Assembly (NCBI GenBank): GCA_031286065.1
Contig: JAITUZ010000017.1
Location: 1-64,000 of the forward strand
Source: Candidatus Methanimicrococcus odontotermitis
Lineage (GTDB): Archaea > Halobacteriota > Methanosarcinia > Methanosarcinales > Methanosarcinaceae
Reading direction: 5' to 3'
Length of the DNA stretch: 64,000 nucleotides
Part shown: piece by piece, positions 44,338 through 63,316 of the stretch
Layout of the letters: every line of letters begins with the position of its first letter
Numbering within the stretch: the stretch's first letter is position 1
Program-made: the position numbers and the translations under genes
The notes under the pieces: model-generated
The model's input: only the letters and a program-made list of their open reading frames with translations
Databases searched by the model: none
Told to the model about the DNA's origin: nothing

Positions 44338-44353
44338 AAGCCAACGTCCGGAT
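44338..44353. repeat. Left attachment site (attL), displaced tRNA-Cys end
   Basis: AAGCCAACGTCCGGAT is identical to 63366-63381, which forms the 3' end of tRNA-Cys. It is the tRNA fragment displaced by integration of the 19-kb element. Confidence 0.9.
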
Positions 44354-44563
44354 GTGGACTGATTTGCATCAGCAAAATCGCCACGAGACGGACGACATAA
44401 AACTCATTTTGTAATTCGTCATTAGTCGCCGTTTCCGGACAAGGCTTAATTTAATACCACTTTTGTTTTCATAATCAGCCCTCGATAAAACACTGATTTG
44501 AAAACAATCCGGTTACCAGCCGGGGTATATTATTAAATACTGTTTATTGTAATATATAATTTT
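44354..44563. other. Left-end non-coding region of the element
   Basis: No gene is seen here. There are TATA-like sequences at about 44523-44535 and 44546-44555 that can serve the NUDIX gene, and several short inverted repeats (gtgg...ccac within 44354-44385). Confidence 0.4.
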
Positions 44564-45376
44564 ATGCCATTTCTAATTCCGGTTTATTATTACAGACAAT
44601 GGAGATATGCGCAGCATTTAATTGAAACCGGCTATTGTAAGCGTGTAAAATGCATATATTTAAAAGGAAGAAGATGCGGTCATGGTCACCGACCACTTAT
44701 CATGGAAGAAGAACACGTATTTACATGCTTAAGTGTGAAAAAATCAAATCCTGCAAAAAAAGCCATTCGCCGAGTAAAAAGATTAATAAGGAATCTAAAA
44801 TCAGATATTGTTTATGGAACAAAAATCCGAAATCGCGGAACAGTAATCCTGAAAAACGAGCACGGAATAATTGTAGTACAGGAACCAAACGGAAGCTGGA
44901 GTTTGCCTGGCGGCGGGATAAACATAAATGAATCAGATATGGAATGCGCATTGAGGGAATTAAGAGAAGAAACCACAGTAAAAGGAAAAAATTCAAATTA
45001 TCAATTTGAAATTAAAGGTCGAATTCACAGAGATCGACATGGGAAACGTTATATAAATTTATATAAAATATTTGAAATCACCGAATATGAAAACAAACCG
45101 AGGCCATCAAACGAAATTAGAAAAATCGGATATTGGAGATCGGGAAAATACATGAGATTAACATCTACAACTAAAAAAATCCTGGATATATATCAAAGAC
45201 CATGGAGAACACCGCAATTCAGACAATATTGCAAGTCGGTAAACTGTGCGTATGGAGATGAGAACGGTTGCGGAATAGATAGACCGGAGTTAAATCCGCC
45301 GGATGAACCGTCAACATGTTTTGAAGATGGCGTTCCATGTTGTTATGATATGCGTTCATTGGATGACGGCCATTAA
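44564..45376 (+). CDS. NUDIX hydrolase with cysteine-rich flanks
   Basis: The 270-residue protein has a central NUDIX domain (about 90-205). The Nudix box is seen as GGININESDMECAL followed by RELREETT, which fits G-x5-E-x7-REUxEE. It should hydrolyse a nucleoside diphosphate linked to another group. The N-terminal part has spaced cysteines (YCKRVKCIY, RRCGHGH, FTCL), and the C-terminal part has another set (YCKSVNCAYGDENGCG, STCF, VPCCYD), which may bind metal. This flank arrangement is unusual for a house-cleaning NUDIX enzyme. As the first gene inside attL it is probably cargo of the element. Confidence 0.85.
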   Translation: MPFLIPVYYYRQWRYAQHLIETGYCKRVKCIYLKGRRCGHGHRPLIMEEEHVFTCLSVKKSNPAKKAIRRVKRLIRNLKSDIVYGTKIRNRGTVILKNEHGIIVVQEPNGSWSLPGGGININESDMECALRELREETTVKGKNSNYQFEIKGRIHRDRHGKRYINLYKIFEITEYENKPRPSNEIRKIGYWRSGKYMRLTSTTKKILDIYQRPWRTPQFRQYCKSVNCAYGDENGCGIDRPELNPPDEPSTCFEDGVPCCYDMRSLDDGH

Positions 45377-45399
45377 TTAACAACAATTCGGCAGAAAAT

Positions 45400-45411
45400 A
45401 CTTATATAAAG
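45400..45411 (+). promoter_or_regulatory. TATA box of the replication gene operon
   Basis: The sequence acttatataaag lies about 75 bases upstream of the first gene of the 45481-48753 group. Confidence 0.5.
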
Positions 45412-45480
45412 ATGAAAATAATAACGTATTGAAATGAATTGGCTTTACCAGAGCCAAAACATCTTTAAAACCAAACCTCG

Positions 45481-45852
45481 ATGAATATGACACAAACAAC
45501 AATTAGCGGAGCTCCCGCTGTAGATTTTACAGGTAAAGTCATTGAATACATTGCATATGGCGCAGGCGCCAAAGGCAAAAGAGACGGACGATACGAAATT
45601 CTGAAAATGTCCGGAATTTCAAGCACACATTTTTTAGTACTCGGCCAAAATATCAATACAAAACTGTATGTTGTTTTTGAAGCCGACCTTTACTCATTTA
45701 ATACTGCTCCCACCCTTGTTTATCCGTCGTATTTAATCAAAAGTCCAGAATTTGCGGAACAAAATTATAATAACCGTCTAAACAAAATCAATCGGCTGAA
45801 AACTCCGATGGATGAAGTCCGAAATATTGACAGATTGCCGGCGGTGGTCTGA
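45481..45852 (+). CDS. Uncharacterised 123-residue element protein
   Basis: I do not recognise this protein. It starts MNMTQTTISGAPAVDF, is beta-rich with IEYIAYGAGAKGKRDGRYEI and LYVVFEADLYSF, and ends in a basic helical tail (NRLNKINRLKTPMDE). The pattern could fit a small OB-fold or single-strand DNA-binding type protein, but no signature is clear. The next gene starts immediately after its TGA, and the third gene of the series is the replication ATPase, so a role in replication is plausible. Confidence 0.75.
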   Translation: MNMTQTTISGAPAVDFTGKVIEYIAYGAGAKGKRDGRYEILKMSGISSTHFLVLGQNINTKLYVVFEADLYSFNTAPTLVYPSYLIKSPEFAEQNYNNRLNKINRLKTPMDEVRNIDRLPAVV

Positions 45853-46281
45853 ATGGTTCAGGATTTGGCAACATTGTGCCGGGATCTCGGAACAATTTTG
45901 GAAATGAAGGAATCCGTGTCTCTTTTAGAAATAGTCGCATTGACGGAGGAAAAGCAGCTTCGAATTAAGGCTGTCATAGATTTACTCATGCTGAAGGACA
46001 AAAGCATTGAAGTGAAAGGAACGACATACACCTACAAACCGATAAAACAAGATGCCATCGTTTTGTATCTTGTATTCACAACGAACTCAATCGTTGACTC
46101 ATTTTATTTTGACCCGGAAGAACCATCTCCGACTGCGGCAGAAATTGCTGAAAAGAATTTTGTGGCCGCTTTTCGGGATGAAAATGAAGCCATGGGTTTT
46201 GCGCACAACAATGGTTTTCAAGTGCTTAAAATTGAAGAATTTATTCCTGAAGAAGATGATGAGCGTCTGTTGGTGATATGA
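45853..46281 (+). CDS. Uncharacterised 142-residue element protein
   Basis: I do not recognise this acidic protein. It is helical in the first half (LATLCRDLGTILEMKES and EEKQLRIKAVIDLLML) and mixed afterwards, with an acidic C terminus (IPEEDDERLLVI). The start ATG touches the stop of the previous gene, and the following gene starts right after its TGA. The three are therefore one translation unit leading to the replication ATPase. Confidence 0.75.
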   Translation: MVQDLATLCRDLGTILEMKESVSLLEIVALTEEKQLRIKAVIDLLMLKDKSIEVKGTTYTYKPIKQDAIVLYLVFTTNSIVDSFYFDPEEPSPTAAEIAEKNFVAAFRDENEAMGFAHNNGFQVLKIEEFIPEEDDERLLVI

Positions 46282-48753
46282 ATGACCATCAGACCAAATG
46301 GGAAAAAAGTTTCAACTCCGAATCCGGATGAAATTTTCAAAGACATGAATCCGAGAGTTTACACTAAAGAGGATTTAAAAAAACACGAAGACCGATTGAA
46401 AGAAATTTCAAAAGCCGAAACTGGATGGAAATTAGAAATCGTTGCTGTCCAGGAACAAACCATTGCTACATGTATCGGCTTTGAAACGCCACACAAAGGG
46501 CTTTAGGATATTCTTGTTGAATTTGAATATAATAAGAAAAAGAAAGGAAAAGCAAAATACACATTCAATTTCACAATTAACGAATTTAATGACAAACTGC
46601 AGCATGTTGAGAAAAATCTCAAAATCAATACCATAAACCCGATTGCAAAAGATGAAAAGTTTGAAAATGAACTGAAGACTTTTTTAACCGAAGCAGGCTA
46701 CAGCAAAAAGTATCTTCACATAAAAATGGCAACAGGAAGTATTCTGAGCATCTGGCAAGAATGGGAACCAAAAGAATTTCAAGCCTTATTTCCAGAAATG
46801 GTTTATAAATCTCCAAAATTAGATTACGCACCGGAAGATTGGATTTACCAAGACTGGATTATTGATTATCCGTATGATATCGATACGAGGAATGGCAAGC
46901 TTTACCGTTACATCATCAACAAAACAGAAGATGGCGATGACATCAAAGTACTGATTTCGGATTTGGTACTGGTTACAGCTGAGTACCAAGATATGGCCAA
47001 GGAAAATGAAATTTATTTCCGGTACCTAATCAGAAATGGCAAACGGAAAGTACAGACATTCATGATGTCAGCCGGAAAAATTTCAGACAAGGAATTCATG
47101 GATGACATTCGCCGCTGCATCATTGTGATTTATGGAGAGGAGAAGCATTTCAACCGATTTTTAACACTGTTCGCAATGCGGAACCGTGATGAAAAGAAAT
47201 TAGCCCATTATTACTTCAGTTCCCGGACAGGTTGGATCACACTTGAAGGAAAACAGTATTTCTTACTCGGAAGCCGTTTTTTTGACATAGAAGATAATTA
47301 TATGAGTCCGGCAGTTCCGACCGATGAGCTGGCCGGTCATGAGGAGTTTTTTGCCGGCATTGCAGATTCCGGAAACTATAGCGAATGGATTAAAGAATGG
47401 ATACCGGCTATTCAAGCTGAGGATCCGACCGGCTGTCAAATCTTCCTTGAGAACACAAACCTTTGGTTTACCGTTTATGCTCTTTCCGCTTCATTTTTAA
47501 TGAATATGTTTCCGGGAATGGAAAATACATTAATCATTAATAGCGGCACCACGTCTCGCGGAAAATCTACGATCGCAAAAATTGCGGCCAGCATGTTCGG
47601 AGACCCGAAAAAATTCATCACGCTCGGCAGCGGAACAGAAAACGGAATTTGGAATGCCTGGCTGAAATGGAATTATTTGCCGTCAATCATGGACGAATTC
47701 ACAAATACGAAACAAGAAATCAAAAACAAGATTCCGTATTGGTTCAGTGACGGGAAGGAAAAAGCGCGCTTAAATAAAGACGCGACAGCCAAAAGAACGA
47801 ATGAATTCCGTAAAATCGGCTATATTTCACTTGAGAATGATTTTGTGAATCAAGTCATGCGGTCAGGAGTCGATGCCCGTGTGATTCCCATTTATGACGG
47901 TTTGAATCTTCCGGACACTGAAGATGAAGAAGTCAACACCGCACGCGCAACACTCATTGATGATCTGGCCAGAGTGAAATCTCACAAATATTTCGGTTTT
48001 TACAAATATGAACTGCTCAAAACCATCAGCGAGGTGGGAACAGACAGAATAAATGAGATTTATGAAAGTGTTTCAAAAACATATACGACAACAAATGACA
48101 CTTTAACAGCGCGTCTGGGAGCAAGTTTCGCTCTGTTTCATGTTTCGGGGATCCTCGTTGAAATGACAAATGAACGGCTGCAGATCCGCAACCAAACTTC
48201 ATCTGAAGAACTTCATGAAATGGTTGAAACTCGCTGCAAAGAAATTCTGGATCAAGTCGTTCAAAATATCGGTGATCATGATTGGCAGGTTGTTCTGGCT
48301 GATGTCTTGGCCCGTGCGGACAACTCTGAAACTCGCACGCGCTGGCTGACGGACGAGCAATTGATGTACCCGTACCGCCCCGATGATGAATGTTCAATCC
48401 GATATCCGGACAAAATTGAGGCCTGGTTTTGCAATGATGGCATGATTGAATATGTCGATGTGGCACCGGATATTCTCAAAACGGTCTGCATATCAACAGT
48501 GGGAAAACCGTCAATGAATAATGTTTTAAAAGAATGGACGGACAAAAAAATAATCAAACCATTAAGAGATGACCAAAAAACAGTCATGCAACGCCATTAT
48601 GATGTTCAAGGCGGCAAAAAAGTCAGGACACCGGTTTATCGGATTAACCTTCAGAAAGCCAAAGAATTGACCGGATATGATCTGATGTATCGCCGGCGGG
48701 AATTGCTGGATGAAATTCAAAGTGATTTAGAAGATTTTGATTCTACAAATTGA
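46282..48753 (+). CDS. DUF927-like replication ATPase with in-frame UAG (probable Pyl75)
   Basis: Read through the TAG at 46504-46506, the frame gives an 823-residue protein. Codons 1-74 begin MTIRPNGKKV, the amber is codon 75, and 73 further codons stay open (DILVEFEYNKKKKGKAKYTF and onwards) before the long C-terminal part. Walker A is SGTTSRGKST near residues 423-431. It is followed by SIMDEFTN as the Walker B-like strand and by GKEKARLN, in the order known from DUF927 and D5-like helicases. It probably unwinds or loads at the element's origin. It is the third gene of a tight operon. A start at the ATG at 46726 is possible but has no ribosome site. UAG as pyrrolysine is inferred from context. 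Confidence 0.8.
46504..46506 (+). other. In-frame TAG, candidate pyrrolysine codon in the replication ATPase
   Basis: The TAG lies at codon 75 of the 46282-48753 frame. The frame is open for 74 codons before it and 748 after it. Confidence 0.65.
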
Positions 48754-48836
48754 GGGATTAAAAGTGACAATAACAGTCGAATAAGGAATCTAATGTTATA
48801 AATTAAGGAATTTAAGGAACAGAGATATTTTGTTTT

Positions 48837-49874
48837 TCACTCCTGTTCCGATAAATTATACTTTGATTTAACTCTTTTTTCAATATCCTCAATCGAAGGA
48901 AGAGTATCTTCAAACTCTTTTGGCAAGTATTCTGTTAATTTATATTCACTTACACCAATGGGTTTTGTCATATCTTTCAAGGCATATTCAGCAATTGTTT
49001 TATTTTTGTTCCGGCATAAAATAAGCCCGATAGAAGGATTATCTTTTTCCTTTTTTAAAAGTTCATCTACGGCTGAGAGATAAAAATTCAACTTGCCGGC
49101 ATATTCCGGTTTAAACATCCCTGCTTTTAACTCTATCACAAAATAACAATGCAGATTCGTATTATAAAAAAGTAAATCAATATAAAAGTCTTCACCGCCG
49201 ACTTCTAAATGATACTGATTTCCAAGAAAAGCAAAACCCGTTCCAAGTTCCAAAAGCAATTTGGAAATATTTGAAACCATCTCATTTTCAATGTCACGTT
49301 CAACCATCTGATCTTTTGCCTCAATAAAATCAAACCAATATGGGTCTTTGAGTGTTTGAACAGCAAGTTCGCTTTGTGCCATATCAAGCCGTGCCGGATA
49401 ATTCGTTGTTTTAGATGCTGAAATTTGGCGCTGGTATAAGTGGGATTCGAGTTGATGTTCTAATACTCCGACTGACCAGTTGTTTTCCGCAGTTTTTAAA
49501 ATATACCACTCCATTTGCCCTCGATCTTTCACTTTATCCAAAATGGACTTATTATGCGTCCACGGAATTTGTGCAGTCACTGACTGCACAAATTCAAGGT
49601 CATTATATGTTGACGCAAATTTTTGCATGTATTTTAAATTCCTCACGGAATAACCTGTAACATTTGGAAAGTCAGCTTTAATGTCCCGCGACAGATTTTC
49701 CACAAATTTATTGCCCCACCGCTTATTTTCAAGTATGATATTTCCGATATTCCAATATAGAGTAAGCAATTCCCGATTCGCGCCGACAACAGCCCTATAC
49801 TGTGCGGTTCTAATTTGAGACTTGATCTCCTCTAAAATACTAAAATATTCGGAATTATTTATCAGCATATGCAT
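48837..49874 (-). CDS. DUF1016/YhcG-family PD-(D/E)xK nuclease
   Basis: The 345-residue protein matches the YhcG family. The N-terminal helical DUF1016_N domain (about 10-155) has LLTLYWNIGNIILE and FPNVTGYSVRNLKYMQKFA. The C-terminal nuclease domain shows EDFYIDLLFYNTNLHCYFVIELKAG, which is the D...ExK catalytic core written as two motifs, and LILCRNKNKTIAEYAL. Members often travel with restriction-modification systems and mobile elements. It is transcribed opposite to the replication operon and converges with it. A role in element defence or recombination is inference. Confidence 0.92.
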   Translation of the reverse strand: MHMLINNSEYFSILEEIKSQIRTAQYRAVVGANRELLTLYWNIGNIILENKRWGNKFVENLSRDIKADFPNVTGYSVRNLKYMQKFASTYNDLEFVQSVTAQIPWTHNKSILDKVKDRGQMEWYILKTAENNWSVGVLEHQLESHLYQRQISASKTTNYPARLDMAQSELAVQTLKDPYWFDFIEAKDQMVERDIENEMVSNISKLLLELGTGFAFLGNQYHLEVGGEDFYIDLLFYNTNLHCYFVIELKAGMFKPEYAGKLNFYLSAVDELLKKEKDNPSIGLILCRNKNKTIAEYALKDMTKPIGVSEYKLTEYLPKEFEDTLPSIEDIEKRVKSKYNLSEQE

Positions 49875-49948
49875 TCTCCAGATATTTTCAACGCATCATT
49901 CATATAAAAACCAAATTGGAATAATTGAAGAATTTATAATCTGAAGAG

Positions 49949-50275
49949 TTAAATTATCTCTTCATCACAATACTCTTTTTCTTCTAATTTTGCCCAGCTA
50001 CGGACAGCCTTGTAAAGTTTCCAAACGGAAAGAAAAAGTAAAATAGGTCCAGCAATCGGACTAAGCATCCGAATGGAAAAACTGGAAAGGTCTTCTAATG
50101 CCAGTTCCATGAGGGTGCTAAACTCCCAATCCCAATAAATGATGGCGAGAAGCACTAAGATATACCAAAACAATAAAATTAAAGATAAAAAAAACAAAGA
50201 AACATAAATCAAAATTGTTCTTTTTATTTTCTTTTTTTCATTGATGACTTCCTGATCAGTGTCTGCAATTGTCAT
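49949..50275 (-). CDS. Small two-span membrane protein of the element
   Basis: The 108-residue protein has two strong hydrophobic segments (about 22-47 and 70-90) with a Lys-rich N-terminal part (NEKKKIKRT) and an acidic C-terminal tail (LEEKEYCDEEII). I do not recognise a family. It lies between the nuclease gene and the putative origin. It may be a superinfection-exclusion or envelope protein, but nothing in the sequence fixes this. Confidence 0.65.
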   Translation of the reverse strand: MTIADTDQEVINEKKKIKRTILIYVSLFFLSLILLFWYILVLLAIIYWDWEFSTLMELALEDLSSFSIRMLSPIAGPILLFLSVWKLYKAVRSWAKLEEKEYCDEEII

Positions 50276-50419
50276 AAGTATAAAAATACCGGTACAGATA
50301 TAAAATGGTTATGTGAAAATAAAGGAAACTGCAATCATTTTTCAAAAAGTGTTATTTTATAATAAAATAATACTTTGAATTCACACTTGATAAAAAACTT
50401 ACAAAAATTGAAAAAAATA

Positions 50420-50721
50420 ACCATGACAACCATGACAACTTAAAAAATAGGCATATTGCTATTGATAGTTCACTGATGCTTTTTTGATTTACTGTTATTG
50501 TTTTTTTTGTCATGGTTGCATACCATGACAATACCATGACAACCATGACAGAACCATGACAACACCACGACAAAAACAAAGTTGTCATGGTTGTCATGGT
50601 AAAAAATAATGTTGTCATGGTTCCAAACCATGACAAAAAAACAAGCATTAGAAGGATGAAAAGAGAGCGGCAAAAAACAGAATCTGACGGAATCATTTAA
50701 TGTTGTCATGGTTGTCATGGT
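50420..50721. repeat. Iteron cluster, putative replication origin of the element
   Basis: Thirteen copies of the heptamer CCATGAC (or its complement GTCATGG) occur within about 300 bases. ACCATGACAACCATGACAAC is at 50420-50439, and its exact reverse complement is at 50581-50600 and again at 50702-50721. The region has no credible gene and is followed by about 280 bases of very AT-rich sequence. This is the layout of iteron-type origins. Confidence 0.7.
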
Positions 50722-51025
50722 GAAAAACACATCATTTTTATTTTTTTGAAAAAACTGAAAAAAGCTGAAAAACCGATTTGTGTTACTCCGGAAAAATAAA
50801 AAGACGAACGAATGAGACTTTTAAAAAATAGAGATTCAGAAAAAAGACAAAAAAATTCTGCATTTTATTCAAAAAAAAGACGAAAATTTGATAAAAAATT
50901 GATTTTTTATTATTACAAAAAATAACCGATTGCGTTTTTAAAAATTTTATTCAGGATTTTATTTCGGAAAGAATAAAAAAGAGATGAGGAGACACGAAAG
51001 TATAAAACAGGAACAGGAGAGCATA
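50722..51025. other. AT-rich non-coding region next to the iterons
   Basis: This is A/T-dominated sequence without an open frame of interest. It contains runs such as aaaaaaaagacg and attttttattattac. It could be the DNA-unwinding part of the origin. No gene is seen. Confidence 0.45.
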
Positions 51026-51535
51026 TTATAAAAAATAAACCAAAACTGACAATAAAATATTTCCAAACGTGCAGCTGATCAAAGCGGCCGGTAAAAATCC
51101 GACAAGTCCGGGCGCCGGGCGGTCAGGCTGAAGAAACCGGAACAAAAGCAAGATAGGAACTGACAGAATCATAAAATTGCAAACAATGTCAAGAGCCGGA
51201 AGTGTCCCGATTCCGGGCAAAATCAAACCATCCGGATAAACCGGCAAAAATAGAATTAACCCGGAAAAGATTTTGACATCAGCCGCGCCGATTGAACCGA
51301 ACATGACAGCACCAGCAGAAAAAACATAAGATAGGACAAAAAGAATGATACCGATTATTATTTCGTGAAATGTCACCGATTTTAAAAACAAAAAATCAAT
51401 AAAAATAAAACAAGATACGCAAATCAAAAAAACGCTTAAAAGCAACTTATTTGGAACGCGCCGGGTCTTAATATCCAGCGGCATGAAAATAAAAGCAATC
51501 GACATCATAAATAAAACTGAAGCAATTGTGAACAT
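51026..51535 (-). CDS. A24-family prepilin/preflagellin peptidase-like protein
   Basis: The 169-residue membrane protein has about five hydrophobic segments. The first conserved aspartate lies in PLDIKTRRVPNKLL, the N-terminal signature of A24 peptidases, and the second in GSIGAADVKIFSG, corresponding to the GxGD region. Such enzymes cut class III signal peptides of archaeal pilins and archaellins. Their presence in a mobile element suggests it encodes its own pilin-like structural protein. The GxGD motif appears as GAAD, so activity is likely but not certain. It overlaps or nearly touches the ribbon-helix-helix gene upstream. Confidence 0.8.
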   Translation of the reverse strand: MFTIASVLFMMSIAFIFMPLDIKTRRVPNKLLLSVFLICVSCFIFIDFLFLKSVTFHEIIIGIILFVLSYVFSAGAVMFGSIGAADVKIFSGLILFLPVYPDGLILPGIGTLPALDIVCNFMILSVPILLLFRFLQPDRPAPGLVGFLPAALISCTFGNILLSVLVYFL

Positions 51536-51541
51536 GATTTA

Positions 51542-51907
51542 TTACTCCCGGATTCGGACTTCTTTTAAAAACGCTTCAAGGGTTTCCCTCAAAAGGCAGC
51601 TCATTGAACAGCCGATCTTCTCGGCATCACGCTTCAGATCATCCCGCATCTCGGGCGAAACCTGCACCAAGAGAACTTTCCATTTTTTGGCCGAAATTTG
51701 ATCCTTTTGATTGCCGGTGTCGGTCGAAAAATCATGGTCATAATTTTGAAGTTCTTGATGTACCCGATTCCAAACCAGCCTGCAGACGGCTGCCCGGCTC
51801 ATGTTCATCAACTTTGCTTTTCGGTCCAGCTCCGCGGCAGTTGAGCGGCTGATCATGATTCTTATCTGGACTTTTTTGTTCGTTTCAGGCGCCGGTGTTC
51901 CGGCCAA
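51542..51907 (-). CDS. Tandem ribbon-helix-helix DNA-binding protein
   Basis: The 121-residue protein contains two RHH (CopG/Arc-like) units. The first is VQIRIMISRSTAAELDRKA with LMNMSRAAVCRLV. The second is KVLLVQVSPEMRDDLKRDA with EKIGCSMSCLLRETL. The short beta strand at the start of each unit makes the DNA contact. A two-unit chain can bind as a pseudo-dimer. It is transcribed away from the structural operon, and the gap between them holds ATTGTA/TACAAT palindromes, so autorepression and control of the late genes are likely. The prepilin peptidase gene follows 6 bases later. Confidence 0.85.
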   Translation of the reverse strand: MAGTPAPETNKKVQIRIMISRSTAAELDRKAKLMNMSRAAVCRLVWNRVHQELQNYDHDFSTDTGNQKDQISAKKWKVLLVQVSPEMRDDLKRDAEKIGCSMSCLLRETLEAFLKEVRIRE

Positions 51908-51967
51908 AATGACTGCGGTTTCCGTTTGAAATTCCCCCGGGAAAAGCGATTCAAAAATCTCATTGTC

Positions 51968-52078
51968 TCAAAATTATACAATGCGGTTTAAATAGGAAAT
52001 ATCAGCATTATTGTAATATAATGAATTTTGAAGATTAACATTATACAATATTGTATAAATGCATTCGTTATTGTATTA
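51968..52078. promoter_or_regulatory. Operator-like palindrome cluster between divergent element operons
   Basis: TTATACAATATTGTATAA at 52041-52058 is a perfect 18-bp palindrome. Related half sites ttatacaat (about 51973), ttattgtaa (about 52006) and ttattgtat (about 52068) surround it. It is the likely target of the ribbon-helix-helix protein and overlaps the promoters for both directions. Confidence 0.65.
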
Positions 52079-52112
52079 ATATTGTTTGCCTGAAAGGGCA
52101 GGAGTGATACAA

Positions 52113-52559
52113 ATGACCGTATTAGTCAACAAATCAACAATATTGACGGAAATTTATTGTTCAATTCTCATGATTTGGACAACAGTTCAAAGGAAGGTAA
52201 CAAATAAACTGAAACAGACGATGTCAAACTGGAGAACAGTCATGAGCATCGCTGTTGCGAACGCTTATTCACCGATTAACGGCGCAAAGACCATTTACAA
52301 AACATTTTATGCGGAAGATGCCGTTGAGCGAGGATCTCTAACCGATGCTGTTGTCGGCCTATTCGTTTTTGGTATGGTTTTGGTTGCGGCATACATCGGT
52401 ATCGGCATGGTTGAGCCCTATTTACCAACAAGTGATGGAACGCTTGATGCCGATGCACAGAAGACGCTTGACACCATCCGCGCAGCTCTCGGCATTGCCG
52501 GCGTCTGTATGATTTTCATTTCACTTGGTTTATTGATTGCGACATTGCGCAGCTGGTAA
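52113..52559 (+). CDS. Pilin-like or coat-like small membrane protein
   Basis: The 148-residue protein has a basic N-terminal part with a hydrophobic stretch (ILTEIYCSILMIWTTV), then DAVERGSLTDAVVGLFVFGM. Here an Arg-Gly pair precedes a long hydrophobic helix, loosely like a class III signal sequence of archaeal pilins. A second membrane helix lies at the C terminus (about 120-146). The prepilin-peptidase-like gene nearby makes a processed pilin or coat subunit plausible. The start at 52113 follows an aggag site. It opens the long structural operon behind the RHH-controlled promoter. The family is not recognised. Confidence 0.6.
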   Translation: MTVLVNKSTILTEIYCSILMIWTTVQRKVTNKLKQTMSNWRTVMSIAVANAYSPINGAKTIYKTFYAEDAVERGSLTDAVVGLFVFGMVLVAAYIGIGMVEPYLPTSDGTLDADAQKTLDTIRAALGIAGVCMIFISLGLLIATLRSW

Positions 52560-52575
52560 TATCAAGAAGGAAGAG

Positions 52576-52869
52576 ATGGCGATGGATGGAATTCTTTATT
52601 CTTTATTTTCGGCAGTCGCGATTCTCGGCGTCTGGATCGGCATAATTGAATTCCGGCTTTCCCGGTCAACTGACGCGGTCATTTTTCCCGGGACATCTCT
52701 CCTTTTAACAATTTTATTGATGATTTCATCAAAATTTGTAGAAACCGAACTGTTCAGTCCGGCTGAAAGTAATTTCATATTTGCTTTTTGGCTCTGCATG
52801 TTCATTTTAAGCTTTGGATTAATGTTTGTCATGGCTGCCGGAACATTCCGGTCTGAAGGAGTTAAATAA
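52576..52869 (+). CDS. Small membrane protein, three spans
   Basis: The protein of about 97 residues begins MAMDGILYSLFSAVAILG. It has three hydrophobic segments (about 5-25, 37-55 and 70-92) linked by short loops. An aggaag ribosome site precedes the ATG at 52576; an ATG two codons later is an alternative. Its last stop base overlaps the next start (taatg). No known family is visible. It is one of a series of small membrane proteins in the structural operon. Confidence 0.7.
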   Translation: MAMDGILYSLFSAVAILGVWIGIIEFRLSRSTDAVIFPGTSLLLTILLMISSKFVETELFSPAESNFIFAFWLCMFILSFGLMFVMAAGTFRSEGVK

Positions 52870-53336
52870 TGTCTGAAATGGGAAATCAATCGGATTACGC
52901 CGGACAAATTACACCGGAAGATATTGTGAAATTGAGGCAAGCCGGCCTCGGAGCCGAAATTTCGAAGTTGTTTCTGGAAGATGAATTTGTCGAAGATATG
53001 ATCTCTCCGGAAGTCAAACCTTATTTTGATGCAATCCGAAAAGTCGGCATCGGACAGTATGATAAAAAAGATGTCGAGAAGCTGTTGAAAAAAATTGACT
53101 CGATGAAAACGACATTCATCATGTCATCAATGGAATCAGAATACACATGGCAGCATGAGCGTGAATTTACGATGCTGAGTGTCCTCGCGATTAAAAACAC
53201 AAGCATGGGAATTGACGGCACATTCCTGAAACGTGCATTCGGCAGCATTCAGGAAACGAATTTGGTTCAGACCATGAACAGTCCGCAGCAAGCGCGGCCC
53301 GGATTAATCGCTTCATTTTTCAGTAAAAAACGATAA
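52869..53336 (+). CDS. Uncharacterised soluble 155-residue protein of the structural operon
   Basis: The protein is soluble, helical and mostly acidic, with a basic C terminus (SFFSKKR). Segments such as EDIVKLRQAGLGAEISKLFL and KKDVEKLLKKIDSMK are amphipathic helices. It starts on an ATG that overlaps the stop of the previous gene. I do not recognise it. The order between membrane-protein genes suggests a structural or assembly role. Confidence 0.75.
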   Translation: MSEMGNQSDYAGQITPEDIVKLRQAGLGAEISKLFLEDEFVEDMISPEVKPYFDAIRKVGIGQYDKKDVEKLLKKIDSMKTTFIMSSMESEYTWQHEREFTMLSVLAIKNTSMGIDGTFLKRAFGSIQETNLVQTMNSPQQARPGLIASFFSKKR

Positions 53337-53361
53337 TTGAAAAACCTCCGGACGGATTAAA

Positions 53362-54384
53362 ATGGATTCATTGTGGATTTGGACAACGTTTTTCTTTGGA
53401 ATGGCATGCGGACTGTTGTTTATTTTTTCCATCGTTTATATAAAATGGAGCGGCCCTTACAGCTGGGTTATTTTTAAGGCAAGGCTGAACGGATACCGCG
53501 TCAGTTGGTTTATTGATAATCATGGTGAAGTCCATCCGGAAGCCGTAAAAGGAGAATTCGGCTATCATGCGGCTGATGCAGGAATTTTCCTCCCGGATCC
53601 GGACAATCCGGTTTCAACCGACCGTGGAAGACACAAAGGCGGTGTTTTTGACACAAACATGGCCGCCGGAATCAATTTTATTTTGATGAAAGCCGCAAAA
53701 AAACTTTCAAAAACAAATACTAACGGGCACACAGAAACAGTCAGCGGAATAAATCAAACGATTATTGAGTCGAATGAACTGGCGGAAGTCAAAGCCGGAG
53801 AGTTCGAAGAAGAAATGTTAGAGGAGCTGGCTGATGCCGGCGGACAAGCTGACGCAATGATTGTTTCGGCGAGAGAAAAAGCGTTGGATGAGCTGAAAAG
53901 TATCAGAGAAGAATTTTATAACTCAGAGGAAGTTACCGATGAGGATTTAAAAAAGAGACTTGAAGACGCTTTTGAAATTATTTATGCTTCAGTGACCGAA
54001 GAATTCACTGAGGAGTCATCGAGTGAAAAAATTGCCGAGAAATTAACGCCGGTTATTGAAAAATATACAAACAAAGTCGAAAAGCTTAAAAAAGAGTTTG
54101 GAGACCGGCTTCTTTTGAGCGACACTGAAATTAAAGCGCTCCGTCATTATTATGTATTGAACCAGCCGCAATACGTTGAGAAAAAGCTTCAGGCATCGGT
54201 CAATGAAGCTGTTTCGCGCGAAAAGAACAATATGAAGACATTCATGATGATTGCCGCGTTTGTCATTGTTGCATTTCTTGCCGTCGTTTTGGCAATTTAC
54301 TTACTCGGCAACGACCCGACTGTAATCATTCAAAACGGCTCGGATTTTATAACGGCCAATAATTCAACAACTCTTCCGATGTGA
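53362..54384 (+). CDS. Membrane protein with N- and C-terminal anchors and coiled coil
   Basis: The 340-residue protein begins with a membrane segment (about 5-28, FFFGMACGLLFIFSIVYI) and a beta-rich domain (SGPYSWVIFKARLNGYRVSW, then FIDNHGEVHPEAVKG). A long Glu/Lys-rich helical region (about 140-285) follows, then a second membrane segment (about 295-317) and a short Thr/Asn-rich outer tail. The overall build resembles virion membrane proteins or components of secretion machines. The family is unknown. It lies in the middle of the structural operon, directly before the first of the two neighbouring TAG-containing genes. Confidence 0.75.
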   Translation: MDSLWIWTTFFFGMACGLLFIFSIVYIKWSGPYSWVIFKARLNGYRVSWFIDNHGEVHPEAVKGEFGYHAADAGIFLPDPDNPVSTDRGRHKGGVFDTNMAAGINFILMKAAKKLSKTNTNGHTETVSGINQTIIESNELAEVKAGEFEEEMLEELADAGGQADAMIVSAREKALDELKSIREEFYNSEEVTDEDLKKRLEDAFEIIYASVTEEFTEESSSEKIAEKLTPVIEKYTNKVEKLKKEFGDRLLLSDTEIKALRHYYVLNQPQYVEKKLQASVNEAVSREKNNMKTFMMIAAFVIVAFLAVVLAIYLLGNDPTVIIQNGSDFITANNSTTLPM

Positions 54385-54389
54385 TAGAC

Positions 54390-54869
54390 ATGTCAGATAG
54401 TTTATTCTCTCAAAACCCGCATGGCGGTCTTTATTCCTCAGTCGGTCAGAAAGGGCTGTACCGGCAGGAAATATCAGTTGATGTTTTAATGTTTCTGGAT
54501 GCGAAAAAGAGTTTTTATTCTGATTTAAAAATAAAACATCGTTTTCCGGATTGTATTGAATCATACGAAGACCTGTGCAGTGAGATGTACGGAATTGTTG
54601 AAAAAGTGAAACCGATCCTGCTTGTCAAAAATAACAAAAAGGATGTTGATCCGCTTGGAATTGCCCTCGTTGATGAACTCGAACAATTCTTTGCATAGAA
54701 GGATTCGGGATTTGATCATAAAAAAATTGAATTAGCCGCAACAAATGCGAATTTGATTATTGAAATGGCGGATTCACTACTGAAAATGCTTTACAGTAAA
54801 GAGATTTACGATCCATCGATCATGTTTAAAATGGACAGTCCGGGAACTGCATACAGGAGGTCTATGTGA
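54390..54869 (+). CDS. Uncharacterised 159-residue protein with in-frame UAG (probable Pyl103)
   Basis: From the ATG at 54390 the frame runs 102 codons to a TAG at 54696-54698. It continues 56 codons (KDSGFDHKKIELAATNANLI, then EMADSLLKMLYSKEIYD and onwards) to a TGA that overlaps the next ATG (tgatg). The overlap and the protein-like composition after the TAG support readthrough. A GTG at 54381 that overlaps the preceding stop is an alternative start. The protein is soluble and helical and I do not recognise it. Loss of the tail would remove about one third of the protein. Confidence 0.75.
54696..54698 (+). other. In-frame TAG, candidate pyrrolysine codon
   Basis: The TAG is codon 103 of the 54390-54869 frame. 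The frame continues for 56 codons to the natural stop/start overlap. Confidence 0.65.
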
Positions 54870-55783
54870 TGCCGAGCGTATTCTTGCGTGACGCTCTTGT
54901 GAAATAGAGAAAGGAATGCGAAGTAAAAGAACGGGAAGATGCCGAGGGAACGAAAAAACCTGTTCTTCGTTTGCTTCAAAAAAATTTGGAAGGGATTGTC
55001 CGCGTTTGCAAAGAAAATCGGCTCGATTGGCCGATTAACGTCGTCGGTGCGGAAGGTTCGGGAAAGTCAACGCTTGCCGCACATATTTCTCAAAAGCTGG
55101 CCGAGATGACCGGGCAAGAGTTGGATTTGGCAGAATCGATGATTTATTCGTTTGACGAGCGTGATCGCCATGGAGCTCCGCTTAAAAACTCATTGGTCGG
55201 ATTCGTTGACAAGTATCAATCAACGGAATTTAAAATATTATGGTATGATGAAGCTGTCACTGTTCTTTTTTCGGACGAACACGCAACGAGAGAATCAAAA
55301 GAGGCGAAAAAACTGTTTATCACGAAGCGTGACATGTGCCATTTTGATATTTTAGTATCACCGTCACCGTTTCACATCATCAAGGATATTCGGAGCCGCC
55401 GCGTTAAAACAATGATTTATTGCTTCATCATGGAAGATCCGGAAACAAAACGCTTCAAGCACAAATATGCCTGGTACTCGGCCGATAAAATCGTTTCAAT
55501 GTCATACGGTTCGAATCAGAAAAAAGCTGAAGTTCTGTTCCGCCGGCCGAAACAATTTATAAACGCGTTTCCGCCGGATTTTATTGAAGATTTCCCGAAA
55601 ATGACGCAAGAATTCGAAGAAAAATATCTTTTGACAAAGCGCACATTCATGAAAACGTATATTGACTCACTCGTCGGCGGCGAAAAAACAGCTGCTGATT
55701 TAGTGCTTCCTGAGAATTTCAGCTTTATACCGGTCTTTGACAAGCTGGTCGGCAAAACTGCCGGCGGCGAGGAGGCCGTCTGA
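54869..55783 (+). CDS. Zot/packaging-type P-loop ATPase with in-frame UAG (probable Pyl13)
   Basis: The frame starts at the ATG at 54869, which has an aggagg ribosome site about 9 bases upstream and overlaps the previous stop. It gives MPSVFLRDALVK, a TAG as codon 13, then RKECEVKEREDAEGTKK and the rest of a 304-residue ATPase. Walker A is GAEGSGKST at 60-68 and Walker B is KILWYDEAV at about 122-130, followed by KKLFITKRDMCHFDILVS as in Zot/HerA-like assembly ATPases. It may drive DNA packaging or virion assembly at the membrane. No ATG or ribosome site exists between the TAG and the P-loop; only a TTG at 54971 could start a shorter form. Confidence 0.82.
54905..54907 (+). other. In-frame TAG at codon 13 of the packaging-type ATPase
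   Basis: The TAG lies 12 codons after a well-placed ATG and ribosome site, and the frame behind it is open for 291 codons. It could act as a gate on expression of the ATPase. Confidence 0.7.
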
Positions 55784-58569
55784 TGGCATACGGAAAAGCA
55801 ACTGTTGTGGATTCGGGAAACTCATCGGGATCGCTTACCAATACCGTCCGCGAAGCCGCCGGAAACGCTGTACGAAATGCGCAGAATTCCGGCGCAAGCA
55901 AAGCCGATGTAATTAAAGCACGAGATGCGGCGAAAGAAAGTGTTTATGCCGGTGCTGTTCAAGCCATCAATACCGGTGGCAGTTATAAAGGGATGAGTGC
56001 ACAGCAGCTGCATAATGAGCTTTACGGCGGACTGGAACAAACGGCGACTCAACACGGAACACCGATTGCACTGGTTCAGAGCCGCAACCATTTGCAGAAC
56101 ATGCAAAATGCCGGCTTCTATGACGCTGAATGGAATCCCACAAACAAAGCATTGCAAGGGCAGATACAGAAGAACCAAAGCCAACCGCCAATAACTGTAA
56201 TAGATTTTAAGCCGGCGGCCGTCCAACCAAAAGAACTCAGCATCAGAGAGCGCATTAATTACGAATCGATGAGACTTAAAGAATCAAAGATTCCAATAAT
56301 AAGAGGAGCTGCGGCTTACCTTCCGAATTATTATGATCCGGAAGTTATGGAGAAAGCGAAAGAAAACAACATTGATTTTAATGAGGTTGCTTCGTCAGTT
56401 TCTTCCTTGATGGGCCCGATCGGTATTCTGAATATTTCAGAAAGTGATAAAAATCCGTTTCGAACTGACAAAAACAAATTGGTGGATGCGACTTTAGAGG
56501 GTCTTTTTTATGGATTTACCGGTGAAGATGTTTCCGGAAAAAGTGAAATCGTCCAAGCGGCCGGCAATCGCGGAACAAACTGGATTGATGCGAAGACAGG
56601 TGCTTTGCATGAGTGGTCTATGCGAAATTTGGACGGGCGATTCTATGAGATTGGATCATTTGTTCGCGGCATGGTTCCGGATTCAATTGTCGGTGTCGGC
56701 ACATTGATTAGTGAAGGGACAAAGACAATTACAGCCGGCTTCCGGGAAGCGAAAAAATCAGGAGCAAACCTGACAGGAATCACCCGTGGTCAAGCGATGT
56801 CAACGTCTTTTGCCGGCATGCTCGGGTTCGGTATCGGCACAATTGCCGGCGGAACAGTAAGAGGAGCAATAGACGACCCGATTGCCTTTGCCGGCGGATT
56901 GATTGGAACCGGCGGTGCAGGCGGTATTGGGAAGTTGGGCATGGGAGTTGGGAAATTCAGATTGAAAGCTTTCAAACAAGCCGCAGGTAAAATTGATGTT
57001 TCACTCAAAGATTTGGGCGTTGATCCTAAAGTGATTAAGATGGGAGGAGATGTTTACAGACTTGAGGGGAAAGCAGCGTTTCCGGATGCTTATCCTGTTA
57101 AGACTGGAATTAAAATGCATGAAGGAGTTTCGATGCTGGAAAATGCAAAAAATCTCTACCCGGGGGAGAAATCCGGAAGCACCGCGATTATTCACTCAAG
57201 TCCAAAAAACAGAGGAGATATTTACAGTCCGCATGTCGGAAAGTCTTCGGAACCAGGCATGTTTGGAGCAGAATCACCTTCAATCCGATTTATGAAGATT
57301 CCATATTTTAAAAATGCAAAATTGGTCGGATTTTCAAATCCTTTCAGCCCATCTAAGTTAAATGAACTCAGTCCAAGAATTATGTTTATTGAGGGGAAAG
57401 GAATTAGATCACCAGAAGTCACATCAGGGGTTAAAACAAATAAGTTTTTACTAAATGATGCAGATGCTGGTTATTTCTGGACAACTCATAAGATGAGACA
57501 AAGAATTGAGAGCGGAAAGCTTGTAGAAGTAGAAGCTGTCGTTTCTCCAAAAACCACAATTTCGACCTACGACAATAAACCGTATTCTGATGCAACTCTT
57601 TACAGAATCGAATCAAAATACCGAACAACAGTTAAACAGCCGATTGATTTCCCCGGAATTAAAATGGATGTTGATTTAAAAGTGCCTGTTGAAAAATATA
57701 TTATGGTCACGGCTGATGATATGGCCTTAGTTCCAGTTTCGGCGCCGGCAAAAAAATCCAAGTTTTTTTCTCCAGATTCGCATGGAAAAGACGGTTCTTT
57801 GACTTATCCGGTCGGAACGAATATGAATCTTCACACGGGACCGAAACCGATTAGAACGGTCACCGAAATTTCAAAAAAAAACGGCAGCATCAAAGAAATG
57901 TTTACAGCCCGCCGAACAGCTTCAGCTGATGTTGTCAATAGGCATAAAGCCGGCATGGCTTCAAAAAATTATGATGCGAAAAAATTGTTTGAATCCGCCA
58001 AATCTAAAAAGACCGCGTCTGCCGAATCTAAACCGATTACATCTGCCGCGTCTCCAACCGCTGCGCGGATCAGCGAGCTGACGGACGGGAAAAATGCCGG
58101 CGATCTGATAAAAAAAACATCAAACACACAAAGCATCGAGGACTTGATTCGAAAAAAAGCACCACCGAAAACAAAAAAGTCGGACTCCGGAAGCAGCCGC
58201 AAATCACCAAAACAGCCGGCATATCCTCTTGTCGATTTAACATACAGCCCTTTGGGTGTCTCACGCGGCGCCAAATCCAAATCAAAGCCCTCTAATTCTC
58301 GCGGCGGTTACTACAGCCCGACCTCGGGGTATGGATACGGCAGCAGTAAAAGTTCATCTCCCGGTTATTCCGGATATGGAGGCGGCAAAAGTTCATCATC
58401 AAAAACGGCACCGTCTAAAGCAACAACTCGACCGATTGTACATAAACAGACATCAAAGAAATTAAAGAAAGAAGAACCAATCAGTCCCGCTAAACGGACA
58501 AAGAAAACCACGAAAAAATCAACAAAGAAAGAATTTAGGGTTAACCCGCTCAGGGGGCTGAAAATCTAA
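55783..58569 (+). CDS. Large 928-residue structural/assembly protein of the element
   Basis: The protein starts MAYGKATVVDSGNSSGSL and has an N-terminal helical part. A Gly/Ala-rich hydrophobic stretch (about 345-390, with IGTGGAGGIGKLGMGVG) may insert in membranes. A mixed central domain (about 400-650) follows, then a long basic, Ser/Pro/Gly/Tyr-rich tail (about 730-928) with SSKSSSPGYSGYGGGKSS and many Lys pairs. Its ATG overlaps the stop of the ATPase gene. The disordered basic tail suggests DNA or membrane-surface binding inside a particle. I recognise no family. Confidence 0.75.
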   Translation: MAYGKATVVDSGNSSGSLTNTVREAAGNAVRNAQNSGASKADVIKARDAAKESVYAGAVQAINTGGSYKGMSAQQLHNELYGGLEQTATQHGTPIALVQSRNHLQNMQNAGFYDAEWNPTNKALQGQIQKNQSQPPITVIDFKPAAVQPKELSIRERINYESMRLKESKIPIIRGAAAYLPNYYDPEVMEKAKENNIDFNEVASSVSSLMGPIGILNISESDKNPFRTDKNKLVDATLEGLFYGFTGEDVSGKSEIVQAAGNRGTNWIDAKTGALHEWSMRNLDGRFYEIGSFVRGMVPDSIVGVGTLISEGTKTITAGFREAKKSGANLTGITRGQAMSTSFAGMLGFGIGTIAGGTVRGAIDDPIAFAGGLIGTGGAGGIGKLGMGVGKFRLKAFKQAAGKIDVSLKDLGVDPKVIKMGGDVYRLEGKAAFPDAYPVKTGIKMHEGVSMLENAKNLYPGEKSGSTAIIHSSPKNRGDIYSPHVGKSSEPGMFGAESPSIRFMKIPYFKNAKLVGFSNPFSPSKLNELSPRIMFIEGKGIRSPEVTSGVKTNKFLLNDADAGYFWTTHKMRQRIESGKLVEVEAVVSPKTTISTYDNKPYSDATLYRIESKYRTTVKQPIDFPGIKMDVDLKVPVEKYIMVTADDMALVPVSAPAKKSKFFSPDSHGKDGSLTYPVGTNMNLHTGPKPIRTVTEISKKNGSIKEMFTARRTASADVVNRHKAGMASKNYDAKKLFESAKSKKTASAESKPITSAASPTAARISELTDGKNAGDLIKKTSNTQSIEDLIRKKAPPKTKKSDSGSSRKSPKQPAYPLVDLTYSPLGVSRGAKSKSKPSNSRGGYYSPTSGYGYGSSKSSSPGYSGYGGGKSSSSKTAPSKATTRPIVHKQTSKKLKKEEPISPAKRTKKTTKKSTKKEFRVNPLRGLKI

Positions 58570-58805
58570 TGGTCAGTTATCAGCTCCTCGTCTTCGGAAT
58601 CGGTCTTGTTGTATTCGGAATAGCGTTTACTTTCATTAATGACCAGTTATATGACATGACGGCAGCCGGTCTGATCGGATATACCGGGATTAATGAAACA
58701 TTCCTATTCGGCCAATATTGGCTGGATTTTTTATGGGGACTCTTCCCTTCATTGGTTTTTGTCACAGGTGGTCTGTGGTGTTCAGCAAGGGCAATGAAAG
58801 GGTGA
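58569..58805 (+). CDS. Small two-span membrane protein
   Basis: The 78-residue protein has two hydrophobic segments (about 5-24 and 50-70) and a short basic C terminus. Its ATG overlaps the stop of the large protein gene, and the spike-like gene starts 6 bases after its end. It may be a partner or membrane chaperone of the following surface protein. No family is recognised. Confidence 0.7.
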   Translation: MVSYQLLVFGIGLVVFGIAFTFINDQLYDMTAAGLIGYTGINETFLFGQYWLDFLWGLFPSLVFVTGGLWCSARAMKG

Positions 58806-58811
58806 TTCAAA

Positions 58812-61220
58812 ATGAAATTAATAAAAACACTCCTCACCCTTTTATTTTTATTCATATTGATGCAGACAGCGAACGCCGAAACGGGTTTGTATGAATTCCC
58901 TGTCGGAGTCGGCGACAACACGCTAGACTTAGGAAACGCATACAACGGCTCATATGTCAATTCCATAACCGGAACTGTTTATGAATCTTCTTTGCATTAT
59001 CAGGAAGTAACAATTAATGTTCCGGACACTGATAAGATAGGAACAAAAAGAACGCTGAAGCTGGATGTTCTGTTTACTGACGGAATGAAATTGGATTTTT
59101 CAGATGTTTATTTCACGGATCGGAATTTTAATATTATTCCGATATATCGTGACATGAATTCGACTGTCAATGGGAGCAATGCTACTTTTTATTTGTATTT
59201 CGACAGCATCGCGGCTCAAAACGATTTATACATGTGCTGGGGAGTCGGGTCGAATCCAAAACAAGATTCGTATGTTTTTTTGGCAAATTTTGGAAATGGG
59301 GAGACATATACCACCAGTGTCAATTTCAACGTGTATCGTCCGGAGAGTTTATACAATATTTCGACATCGCCTGCGTCTACTTTTAATTATACGAATGCTG
59401 AAGTTATTTTCTCGATGAGTGGTTCCGGCTCGAATCATAATACAGCGCCATGGCTAAGACTGAAAATAAATTCATCAAATAGTTCTGCTCTCACTAATTC
59501 TGTCGGTACATGGGTTGAGGGCGGCCGATTGTTTTTAATAACGTTTCCAGGTTGGATGCAGACAGAAATTCGTCCAATTTCCACAACTATCATCAAACTT
59601 GAATCTTCTCTGATAAATTCGACTTTAGTTGGAAATGCAAATAATATAACATCAATCTGGGATCTTACAAATAATGACTGGACTAATGTTTTTAGTTTTA
59701 ATCGCGGGTCCGGTTCCATAACCATTTATTCATTTAAAACATATAATTCTACAAATTTTACCGCAAGTTTCGGAGAAATTAATAAACTCGTAGCTTCGGA
59801 ACATCCGATTACAATCTCTTATCCAGCTTCCGATTTTTCGACATTGGATTTTGAATCAGAGTGGGTCGGAAATTTAGAATTTAGAATAAATTATGACCCC
59901 CATGCCGTTTTGTCAACGCCGAACGATGCAACATTCCAAGAAACCGCCATTCTGCAATTTGAAATAAACCCGCAAAATCTGCAGCTGCCATATCAGATCG
60001 CTCTTGACGACACTTTTTTCAGCATCGTCAATTCCGGATCATCGTCCGGAATCATTTCAGTAAAGTTGCCGGCAAACAATTATTACTGGAGAGTGATGCA
60101 GCCGGACGGAAATTATTCGGATATTCGGACGTTTACGGTCACAGAACCGGGACCGATTCAGGGGTCATTAAATTTTACAATAAGAAATGAACTGACAAAC
60201 ACATCTGTGTCGGCAACCGTTACGATTTCAAACAACACAACAACTTTACAAAAAACAGGTTCTACTGTTACATTTAACAGTTCCGAAGTCACGGCCGGCA
60301 ATTACTCGGTTCGTGTCAATTCAACAAACAATTCAACGCGGTTTTATGAAGTCGTTAGTCCGGGAGATTATACTCTTTATATTTTACCGATAACGGTGAA
60401 CACATCCGTTGTTTATTTTTCGTTGATTGACAACACAAATCAGTTTCAATACAATTCGACCAAACTCGAAATCATAAAACAGACAACGAACGGTTCAATT
60501 GTTGTCACAAGCAATTATTTTGATGCGTCCGGCTTTGTTGTCACAACTCTTAATCAATTCGATAATTATATTCTTAAAGTCGTTTCGGATTCAGGAACTG
60601 AAAGAATTTTGGGAAACTACATTCAGGCCGGTCAAACATCAATCCAACTTGTCATTTCAGAAATTATCTTGAAGGATCCTGATGTTAACATACACGGAGG
60701 ATTCACTTACAATCTGAAGAAATCTCTGGAAGGAATTAAACTTGAGTGGCGGAATCCGAACAGTGATGCATTAACTGAGCCATTTACGTTCAAAATCTTA
60801 AAGGATGGGGAGCAGGTGATGAACATTACATCGACCGCACCTTTCGGCCTAATTCATTATATTGATACAGGCGGCGGCGAACTTGATCCGAATGCGACAT
60901 ATGAGATCATCTTTGAGGCCGAAACAACCGGCGGAAAAATTAGGGTTCACGAATTCTACAAAATCAGCGGTGAAATAACCGGAATTAACTTTGACATTAT
61001 CCCGGCACCAGTGAGAATCATTGTGACAATTGGACTGCTCGTTCTTGTGGCCAGCCAATTCAACACAACAAACGCTAAATTTGCAGCGGTTGTCGTATCA
61101 GTTATTGCATTATTCTTATCGTTTGTTTCATTCTTTCCGGTCGGAAATGCAATATTGGTTTTCGTTTGGCTGCTGTTCATTGCAGTCGTTGCACTGAAGA
61201 CGAGCAGGAGGTTCGGATAA
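58812..61220 (+). CDS. Spike-like exported surface protein, 802 residues
   Basis: The protein begins with a signal peptide (MKLIKTLLTLLFLFILMQTA, cleavage after about residue 22) and then a long beta-rich outer part full of Asn-Ser/Thr sequons. Residues about 55-160 resemble a DUF2341-like beta sandwich. About 610-710 looks like a fibronectin type III domain (GIKLEWRNPNSDALTEPFTF, then FKILKDGE). Three hydrophobic segments at the C terminus (about 735-798) anchor it. This is the build of receptor-binding spikes on archaeal vesicle-like viruses, or of an S-layer-penetrating adhesin. The next gene starts right after its stop. Confidence 0.75.
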   Translation: MKLIKTLLTLLFLFILMQTANAETGLYEFPVGVGDNTLDLGNAYNGSYVNSITGTVYESSLHYQEVTINVPDTDKIGTKRTLKLDVLFTDGMKLDFSDVYFTDRNFNIIPIYRDMNSTVNGSNATFYLYFDSIAAQNDLYMCWGVGSNPKQDSYVFLANFGNGETYTTSVNFNVYRPESLYNISTSPASTFNYTNAEVIFSMSGSGSNHNTAPWLRLKINSSNSSALTNSVGTWVEGGRLFLITFPGWMQTEIRPISTTIIKLESSLINSTLVGNANNITSIWDLTNNDWTNVFSFNRGSGSITIYSFKTYNSTNFTASFGEINKLVASEHPITISYPASDFSTLDFESEWVGNLEFRINYDPHAVLSTPNDATFQETAILQFEINPQNLQLPYQIALDDTFFSIVNSGSSSGIISVKLPANNYYWRVMQPDGNYSDIRTFTVTEPGPIQGSLNFTIRNELTNTSVSATVTISNNTTTLQKTGSTVTFNSSEVTAGNYSVRVNSTNNSTRFYEVVSPGDYTLYILPITVNTSVVYFSLIDNTNQFQYNSTKLEIIKQTTNGSIVVTSNYFDASGFVVTTLNQFDNYILKVVSDSGTERILGNYIQAGQTSIQLVISEIILKDPDVNIHGGFTYNLKKSLEGIKLEWRNPNSDALTEPFTFKILKDGEQVMNITSTAPFGLIHYIDTGGGELDPNATYEIIFEAETTGGKIRVHEFYKISGEITGINFDIIPAPVRIIVTIGLLVLVASQFNTTNAKFAAVVVSVIALFLSFVSFFPVGNAILVFVWLLFIAVVALKTSRRFG

Positions 61221-61589
61221 ATGGAAACTTATAAAATTACAGTTTTTTTGATAATTTTGAATTATACAATCTTCGCATTTGCGGCACTTGGTGTTTTCCC
61301 GATAGAGTATCCGTATATCAGCGAATATATCGACCCGTCAACATTTTCCGGAAACGTTCCCGAAAATATCAGTTATGACAGTATCAGCTACGGCAATTAT
61401 ATTTTTGGCGATTTCATTCGAGCGCTTGTCATGATTGCCGCACTGCTGGTCATTGCACCGTTTGCGCTTGCGTTTTTATTAAACTCATTGGGCATTCCGA
61501 CATTGATTTCAACACTTTTGATCATCATGCTGTCAATTATTTATATCAAAGATTTGGCTGAGTTCATTGGAAACCGCATTATAAAATAA
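61221..61589 (+). CDS. Membrane protein of the structural operon (122 residues)
   Basis: It has three hydrophobic segments (about 5-24, 65-86, 90-110) and a polar loop rich in Ser, Tyr and Pro between the first two (EYPYISEYIDPSTFSGNVPE). The ATG is directly behind the stop of the spike-like gene. The family is unknown. It is the first of three similar small membrane proteins in a row. Confidence 0.7.
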   Translation: METYKITVFLIILNYTIFAFAALGVFPIEYPYISEYIDPSTFSGNVPENISYDSISYGNYIFGDFIRALVMIAALLVIAPFALAFLLNSLGIPTLISTLLIIMLSIIYIKDLAEFIGNRIIK

Positions 61590-61604
61590 CAGGCGGCGAT
61601 TAAA

Positions 61605-62194: not shown

Positions 62195-62288
62195 CAAGTA
62201 CCGGTTTTGACAATAAACTTTTTTTATTTTTTCCAAATGTATGGGATGTGGCGGGCTACCGCCGCATGAACAATTCGGAGATATAAAA

Positions 62289-63233: not shown

Positions 63234-63270
63234 CAAAATCATTTTGTTAAAAAACTGCAAAAAAATAAGA

Positions 63271-63316
63271 CAGCAAGAGAACGTTTTTCAAAAAGCTTTC
63301 AAAGAGTCTCTTGCTG
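63271..63316 (+). terminator. Hairpin between the integrase gene and attR
   Basis: The arms cagcaagaga and tctcttgctg form a perfect 10-bp stem with a 26-base loop containing T5 and A5 runs. It may end the integrase transcript or be an accessory site for recombination. Confidence 0.5.

Follow-up and report, generated by a model that had tools for sequence, protein, structure and literature searches.

Staphylococcal pathogenicity islands (SaPIs) carry their replication origin directly downstream of rep, and its iterons are recognised by the C-terminal domain of the Rep protein (PMC7581432). The origins of phage-inducible chromosomal islands (PICIs) consist of an AT-rich region flanked by two sets of iterons, an organisation said to occur in no other known bacterial replicon (PMC6092414). 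This article concerns a repeat cluster in a 19.03-kb integrated mobile element (44339-63381) of the archaeon Candidatus Methanimicrococcus odontotermitis, located on a stretch of 64,000 nucleotides (contig JAITUZ010000017.1, positions 1 to 64,000, hereafter “the window”) that was analysed as a whole. Judging from comparison with related loci, the cluster is very likely a SaPI/PICI-type replication origin of this element, with the element's own Rep helicase as the predicted binder. Literature searches among open-licence papers found no earlier report of such an origin in archaea, and as far as these searches show, it would be the first of its type in this domain of life.

The bacterial side of the comparison is illustrated by PT1028, the sole relative of this Rep among 50,697 phage records. 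PT1028 corresponds to the SaPI SaPINY940, in which no toxin has been identified (PMC8989297). Its unit, AGTTCCC, starts 3 bp after the rep stop codon and recurs in both orientations at a pitch of 9 and 11 bp, the iterons surrounding a 90-bp AT-rich gap (80% AT). A DUF927 gene of a Vibrio harveyi phage-like plasmid is also followed by such repeats: GTAACAGA units begin 1 bp after its stop codon and form 9-bp triplets in opposite orientation.

The window cluster has the same two pitches as PT1028. Its proposed origin core (50420-50721) spans 302 bp, the repeats extending no further, and holds 14 units that read, with > standing for ACCATGACA, as >>[70 bp]<>>>>><<<>[68 bp]<<. The first-pass annotation had counted 13 copies of CCATGAC in both orientations, and all 13 were recovered as exact copies between 50421 and 50720; the fourteenth is a variant, CCACGAC, at about 50565. 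From left to right, a forward double iteron of 9-bp pitch (50420-50438) is followed by an AT-rich gap between converging iterons (50439-50506, about 75-76% AT), a diverging iteron pair TTGTCATGGTTGCATACCATGACAA (50507-50531), forward direct iterons at 9-, 11- and 11-bp pitch that end with the variant (50533-50573), and a reverse double iteron of 9-bp pitch (50582-50600). A second diverging pair with the same spacing as the first (50612-50636) then leads into a second gap between converging iterons (50637-50702, about 65-66% AT), closed by a last reverse double iteron, also of 9-bp pitch (50703-50721). The whole is nearly mirror-symmetric about 50571, with each of the two AT-rich gaps lying between converging units. 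The 20-bp double unit at 50420-50439 does recur without mismatch on the opposite strand, at 50581-50600 and 50702-50721, and a further direct double unit occupies 50533-50550. Behind the repeats, the AT-rich flank noticed earlier (50722-51025) is 75% AT, and the 100-bp window richest in AT across the whole element starts within it, at 50865. The cluster is indeed away from genes: the two minus-strand ORFs that flank it, 49949-50275 and 51026-51535, leave an intergenic interval of 750 bp. It is not in the middle of the element, as had been stated, but at about 32% of its length.

The repeats are specific to this place. The window as a whole contains 24 copies of CCATGAC against 5.0 expected, and none of 100 shuffles reached at least 24 (maximum 11). 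Of the 14 copies of the 10-mer ACCATGACAA across the 1.75-Mb genome, the cluster holds 12, and the double unit is found genome-wide only there, so the repeats are not common across the host chromosome; a comparison of 186 genomes from the order showed the double unit in none but this one. It does turn up in ten viral contigs, as single-strand 9-bp tandem repeats without a Rep relative, and these were set aside as unrelated. In four viral contigs (L130, L131, L127 and L135), the 9-mer ACCATGACA is tandemly repeated over long stretches of a single strand; these arrays are not related to Rep and are probably coding repeats. A coding origin was considered for the window cluster too, since frames of 114 and 86 amino acids cross it; the encoded peptide is of low complexity and repeat-derived, with no family support, and this reading was rejected.

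What carries the argument is that the same anatomy recurs beside homologous rep genes. Twenty 20-kb loci around remote Rep homologues from across the archaeal class were compared with 19 controls taken elsewhere in those genomes, using home-made detectors whose unit calls tolerate one mismatch and depend on the seed word. Mixed-orientation 8-mer clusters with at least six copies were present in 8 of the 20 Rep loci and in none of the 19 controls; converging arrays of pitch 9, scoring at least 8, gave the same figures (8/20 vs. 0/19), whereas at pitch 10 there was no contrast, with one Rep locus and one control. As the converging-array detector was designed after the pitch had been seen, it cannot be tested independently on the first set. 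Ten additional Rep loci, including three from a different family within the class, were found after the rule had been fixed; with the detectors unchanged, nine had a cluster near rep, and in the tenth rep is only a fragment at the end of its contig. In all first-set clusters, the tandem units stand 9 or 11 bp apart and converge on an AT-rich gap, and the unit sequences are unrelated. Shared descent makes the Rep loci less than fully independent, but their differing units argue against a single array having simply been inherited. Taken over 24 replicons, 92 of the 117 spacings of up to 13 bp between neighbours are 9 or 11 bp (65 and 27, respectively) and 5 are 10 bp, while 8, 12, and 13 bp account for 13, 6, and 1. 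In 20 of 23 relatives the cluster is found on the 3′ side of rep, mostly starting 0-111 bp after the rep stop codon; that of the window is also 3′ of rep, at 1667 bp. In another locus (L115 of genome G085, 7647-7954), an origin-like cluster has all nine of its close spacings at 11 bp, and pitch 11 alone seems to be sufficient in some replicons.

The Rep initiator helicase itself (46726-48753, plus strand) matches Pfam DUF927 (5e-21), PHROG primase/helicase (2.6e-27) and two PDB entries, 8tch, a staphylococcal pathogenicity-island protein (E 7.4e-13 with phmmer for the window Rep alone), and 5dgk, the helicase of the staphylococcal cassette chromosome mec (SCCmec). A profile of 13 archaeal Reps strengthens these matches to E 1.4e-60 over residues 20-554 of 580 for 8tch and to E 8e-45 over residues 153-545 of 603 for 5dgk, both alignments reaching into the C-terminal domain. 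This C-terminal region is conserved across the archaeal Reps, with D578 and W604 invariant. The same geometry beside homologous rep genes, together with the profile match to the staphylococcal protein, is the reason for assigning the locus to the SaPI/PICI-type rep-ori module. The first-pass annotation had offered as binder either the replication ATPase or two small proteins encoded before it; the helicase itself is now predicted, via a C-terminal winged-helix-like domain, and the small proteins are not. No close relative of Rep or of the element's ATPase was found in the viral_contigs collection. The Rep alignment itself offered no segment of sufficient conservation for scanning sequence collections.

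The gene may be longer than its annotated frame. The open frame of Rep extends upstream to 46507 and, through an in-frame TAG (46504-46506), to 46282, so that this codon joins ORF 46282-46506 to the Rep frame; there is no start codon from the TAG to 46726. TAG ends only one of the 42 listed window genes, and PylS is present in the genome. Read in this way, Rep may be an 824-amino-acid protein with pyrrolysine at position 75. Another locus of the same genome (L034, contig C13) encodes a 97-amino-acid frame 45% identical to the Rep C-terminus, either a remnant or a stand-alone DNA-binding domain; it also has regular same-strand repeats resembling a CRISPR array, its positions of interest being 9739-9906 and 13777-14318.

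How would such an origin work? The element's own DUF927 AAA+ helicase Rep would recognise the iterons through its C-terminal winged-helix-like domain, and the converging 9- and 11-bp arrays would position two Rep oligomers of opposite orientation so that they flank an AT-rich segment. This segment would then melt between them, the helicases would self-load and move apart, and host enzymes would do the priming and extension. We infer Rep binding, melting and firing in the window element from the comparison above. On a broader level, it seems fairly probable that the self-loading helicases of DUF927 type, together with the iteron origins they use, make up a single class of origin across archaea and bacteria, held together by a geometric code that is independent of sequence. 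That code would be a pitch of 9 or 11 bp, hardly ever 10, in arrays converging across an AT-rich gap, and it would make origins findable without a shared iteron sequence.

The likeness to the SaPI/PICI module, as known from PT1028 and the SaPIbov1-type Rep, lies in the homologous DUF927-type helicase with its C-terminal DNA-binding domain, and in short iterons of both orientations at 9- and 11-bp pitch, with an AT-rich gap, placed 3′ of rep. The window element differs in its archaeal host, its unit sequence, and the spacing of rep and iterons, which are 1.67 kb apart with two cargo genes in between, as well as in its 14 units, two AT-rich gaps and near mirror symmetry; it has no recognised adjacent primase gene, and virus-like membrane genes replace the satellite genes of SaPIs. 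The origin is therefore classed as SaPI-type, while the element as a whole is not classed as a PICI: a Pfam scan of 20 element proteins showed no terS, stl-type repressor, primase or phage-interference gene. SCCmec Cch (PDB 5dgk) is a homologous DUF927 self-loading helicase, and for Cch2 a putative origin with repeats has been placed downstream of the operon (PMC7581432). Cch2, however, is a helicase of a different family, and the iterons of its origin number only three, each of 5 nt. In iteron theta plasmids of the RepA/RepE/TrfA type, initiator-bound iterons also adjoin an AT-rich unwinding region (for general reference, PMC4980987). Their initiators are not helicases and come from another protein family, and their iterons are longer direct repeats. 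Archaeal Orc1/Cdc6 origins have an AT-rich unwinding region flanked by inverted ORB repeats. The window cluster differs from them in unit and initiator, and among the scanned element proteins there was no Pfam match to Orc1/Cdc6; it does not qualify as an ORB origin.

Several observations weigh against a SaPI/PICI-type origin. In the window, the YhcG gene and a small membrane-protein gene, both on the opposite strand, separate rep from the cluster; clusters at L042, L043 and L113 likewise lie about 1.7-1.9 kb behind rep. Seven of the 20 first-set Rep loci yielded no cluster with these detectors, and may have other unit types, be decayed, or have their origins elsewhere. Among the relatives, two clusters are 5′ of the matched rep and one is inside a long frame. 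The element has no close relative in the data, so its unit sequence cannot be footprinted. Finally, the GC-skew switch proposed as a check did not appear: no strand-independent change was seen, third-position skew included. Since the skew follows gene orientation, this test is uninformative; the detrended minimum, at 51984, is suggestive only.

Could the repeats instead serve a neighbouring DNA-binding protein? A minus-strand gene 0.8 kb from the cluster (51542-51907) encodes a protein with two ribbon-helix-helix (RHH)-like motifs (PHROG Arc/CopG-like repressors; NikA-like match below the cut-off), and RHH proteins often bind short repeats. ORF 49949-50275 also starts close by, with the cluster immediately upstream. 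In this case the cluster would be an operator array, through which the protein would repress either a lytic operon or the minus-strand genes 49949-50275 and 48837-49874. We regard this as improbable: paired RHH and A24-peptidase genes occur again alongside the structural module in L076, L077 and L078, but the scans showed no cluster of this kind there, whereas other elements combine rep and a cluster with no RHH gene nearby. The L027 cluster sits between two converging gene ends, where a promoter is not expected. The same protein could be ParR-like and bind the cluster as a partition (centromere) site, as parC sites are also made of short repeats at about 10-bp pitch. We consider this the least likely reading: no ParA/ParM-like ATPase was matched among the 20 element proteins scanned, the cluster associates with rep and not with RHH genes, and the layout of parC differs from converging arrays around AT-rich gaps. 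As a general function, then, operator and partition are both disfavoured because clusters travel with rep and RHH relatives occur without a cluster, although in the window element alone the RHH protein may be a second binder.

A different possibility keeps Rep as the binder and gives its site a role in copy control or autoregulation instead of initiation. Plasmid iterons are also used for copy control, and the distance of 1.67 kb from rep and a unit count above that of most relatives would suit such a role. This is very unlikely, since in the 20 relatives mentioned above the cluster is behind rep and not at its promoter, and the AT-rich gaps that separate converging arrays are consistent with melting. 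An origin of replication bound by Rep, as originally proposed, remains the reading best supported: clusters of the same anatomy and unrelated units adjoin homologous DUF927 Reps in archaeal elements and in a SaPI.

The element is integrated in a tRNA-Cys gene (63367-63438, minus strand). The 15-bp direct repeat AGCCAACGTCCGGAT (0.01 expected) is found at both ends on the plus strand, as attL (44339-44353) and as attR (63367-63381), the latter being the 3′ end of the tRNA gene, which a plus-strand tyrosine integrase adjoins (62241-63233, Pfam Phage_integrase 1.7e-13). The cargo between rep and the iterons includes a YhcG/DUF1016 PDDEXK nuclease (48837-49874, minus strand, Pfam 1.2e-64 and 5e-40), possibly a defence gene. 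Other genes comprise a NUDIX cargo gene, a minus-strand A24 peptidase, and a long series of membrane proteins with an ATPase, of which Methanosarcina sp. UBA8098 carries a relative. The region 52086-62194 forms a virus-like module of a small protein with two transmembrane segments, the ATPase, a large signal-peptide protein with a C-terminal transmembrane segment, three small membrane proteins, and a 600-900-amino-acid protein. It recurs with different replication genes in L073-L078 and L112, from Methanosarcina and the window's genus, and possibly represents a family of membrane-containing or spindle-shaped proviruses. A second, related element is present in the same genome (L077, contig C34, 9.5 kb), with an ATPase 36% identical, and in a genome of the same genus (G003, contig C63, L078/L070) the related ATPase has an in-frame TAG near its start, a candidate for pyrrolysine read-through.

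The PICI-like iteron organisation and its homologous initiators are thus found in integrated elements of methanogenic archaea, some of which have tailed-virus genes. If the proposed origin is correct, mobile elements of two domains of life appear to share a single type of self-contained origin, and the pitch rule constrains how a self-loading helicase ring is assembled on DNA. Replication of many archaeal proviruses and islands would become testable, as rep and the 9/11-bp rule would indicate where their origins lie; compact rep-ori vectors could also be built for Methanosarcinales.
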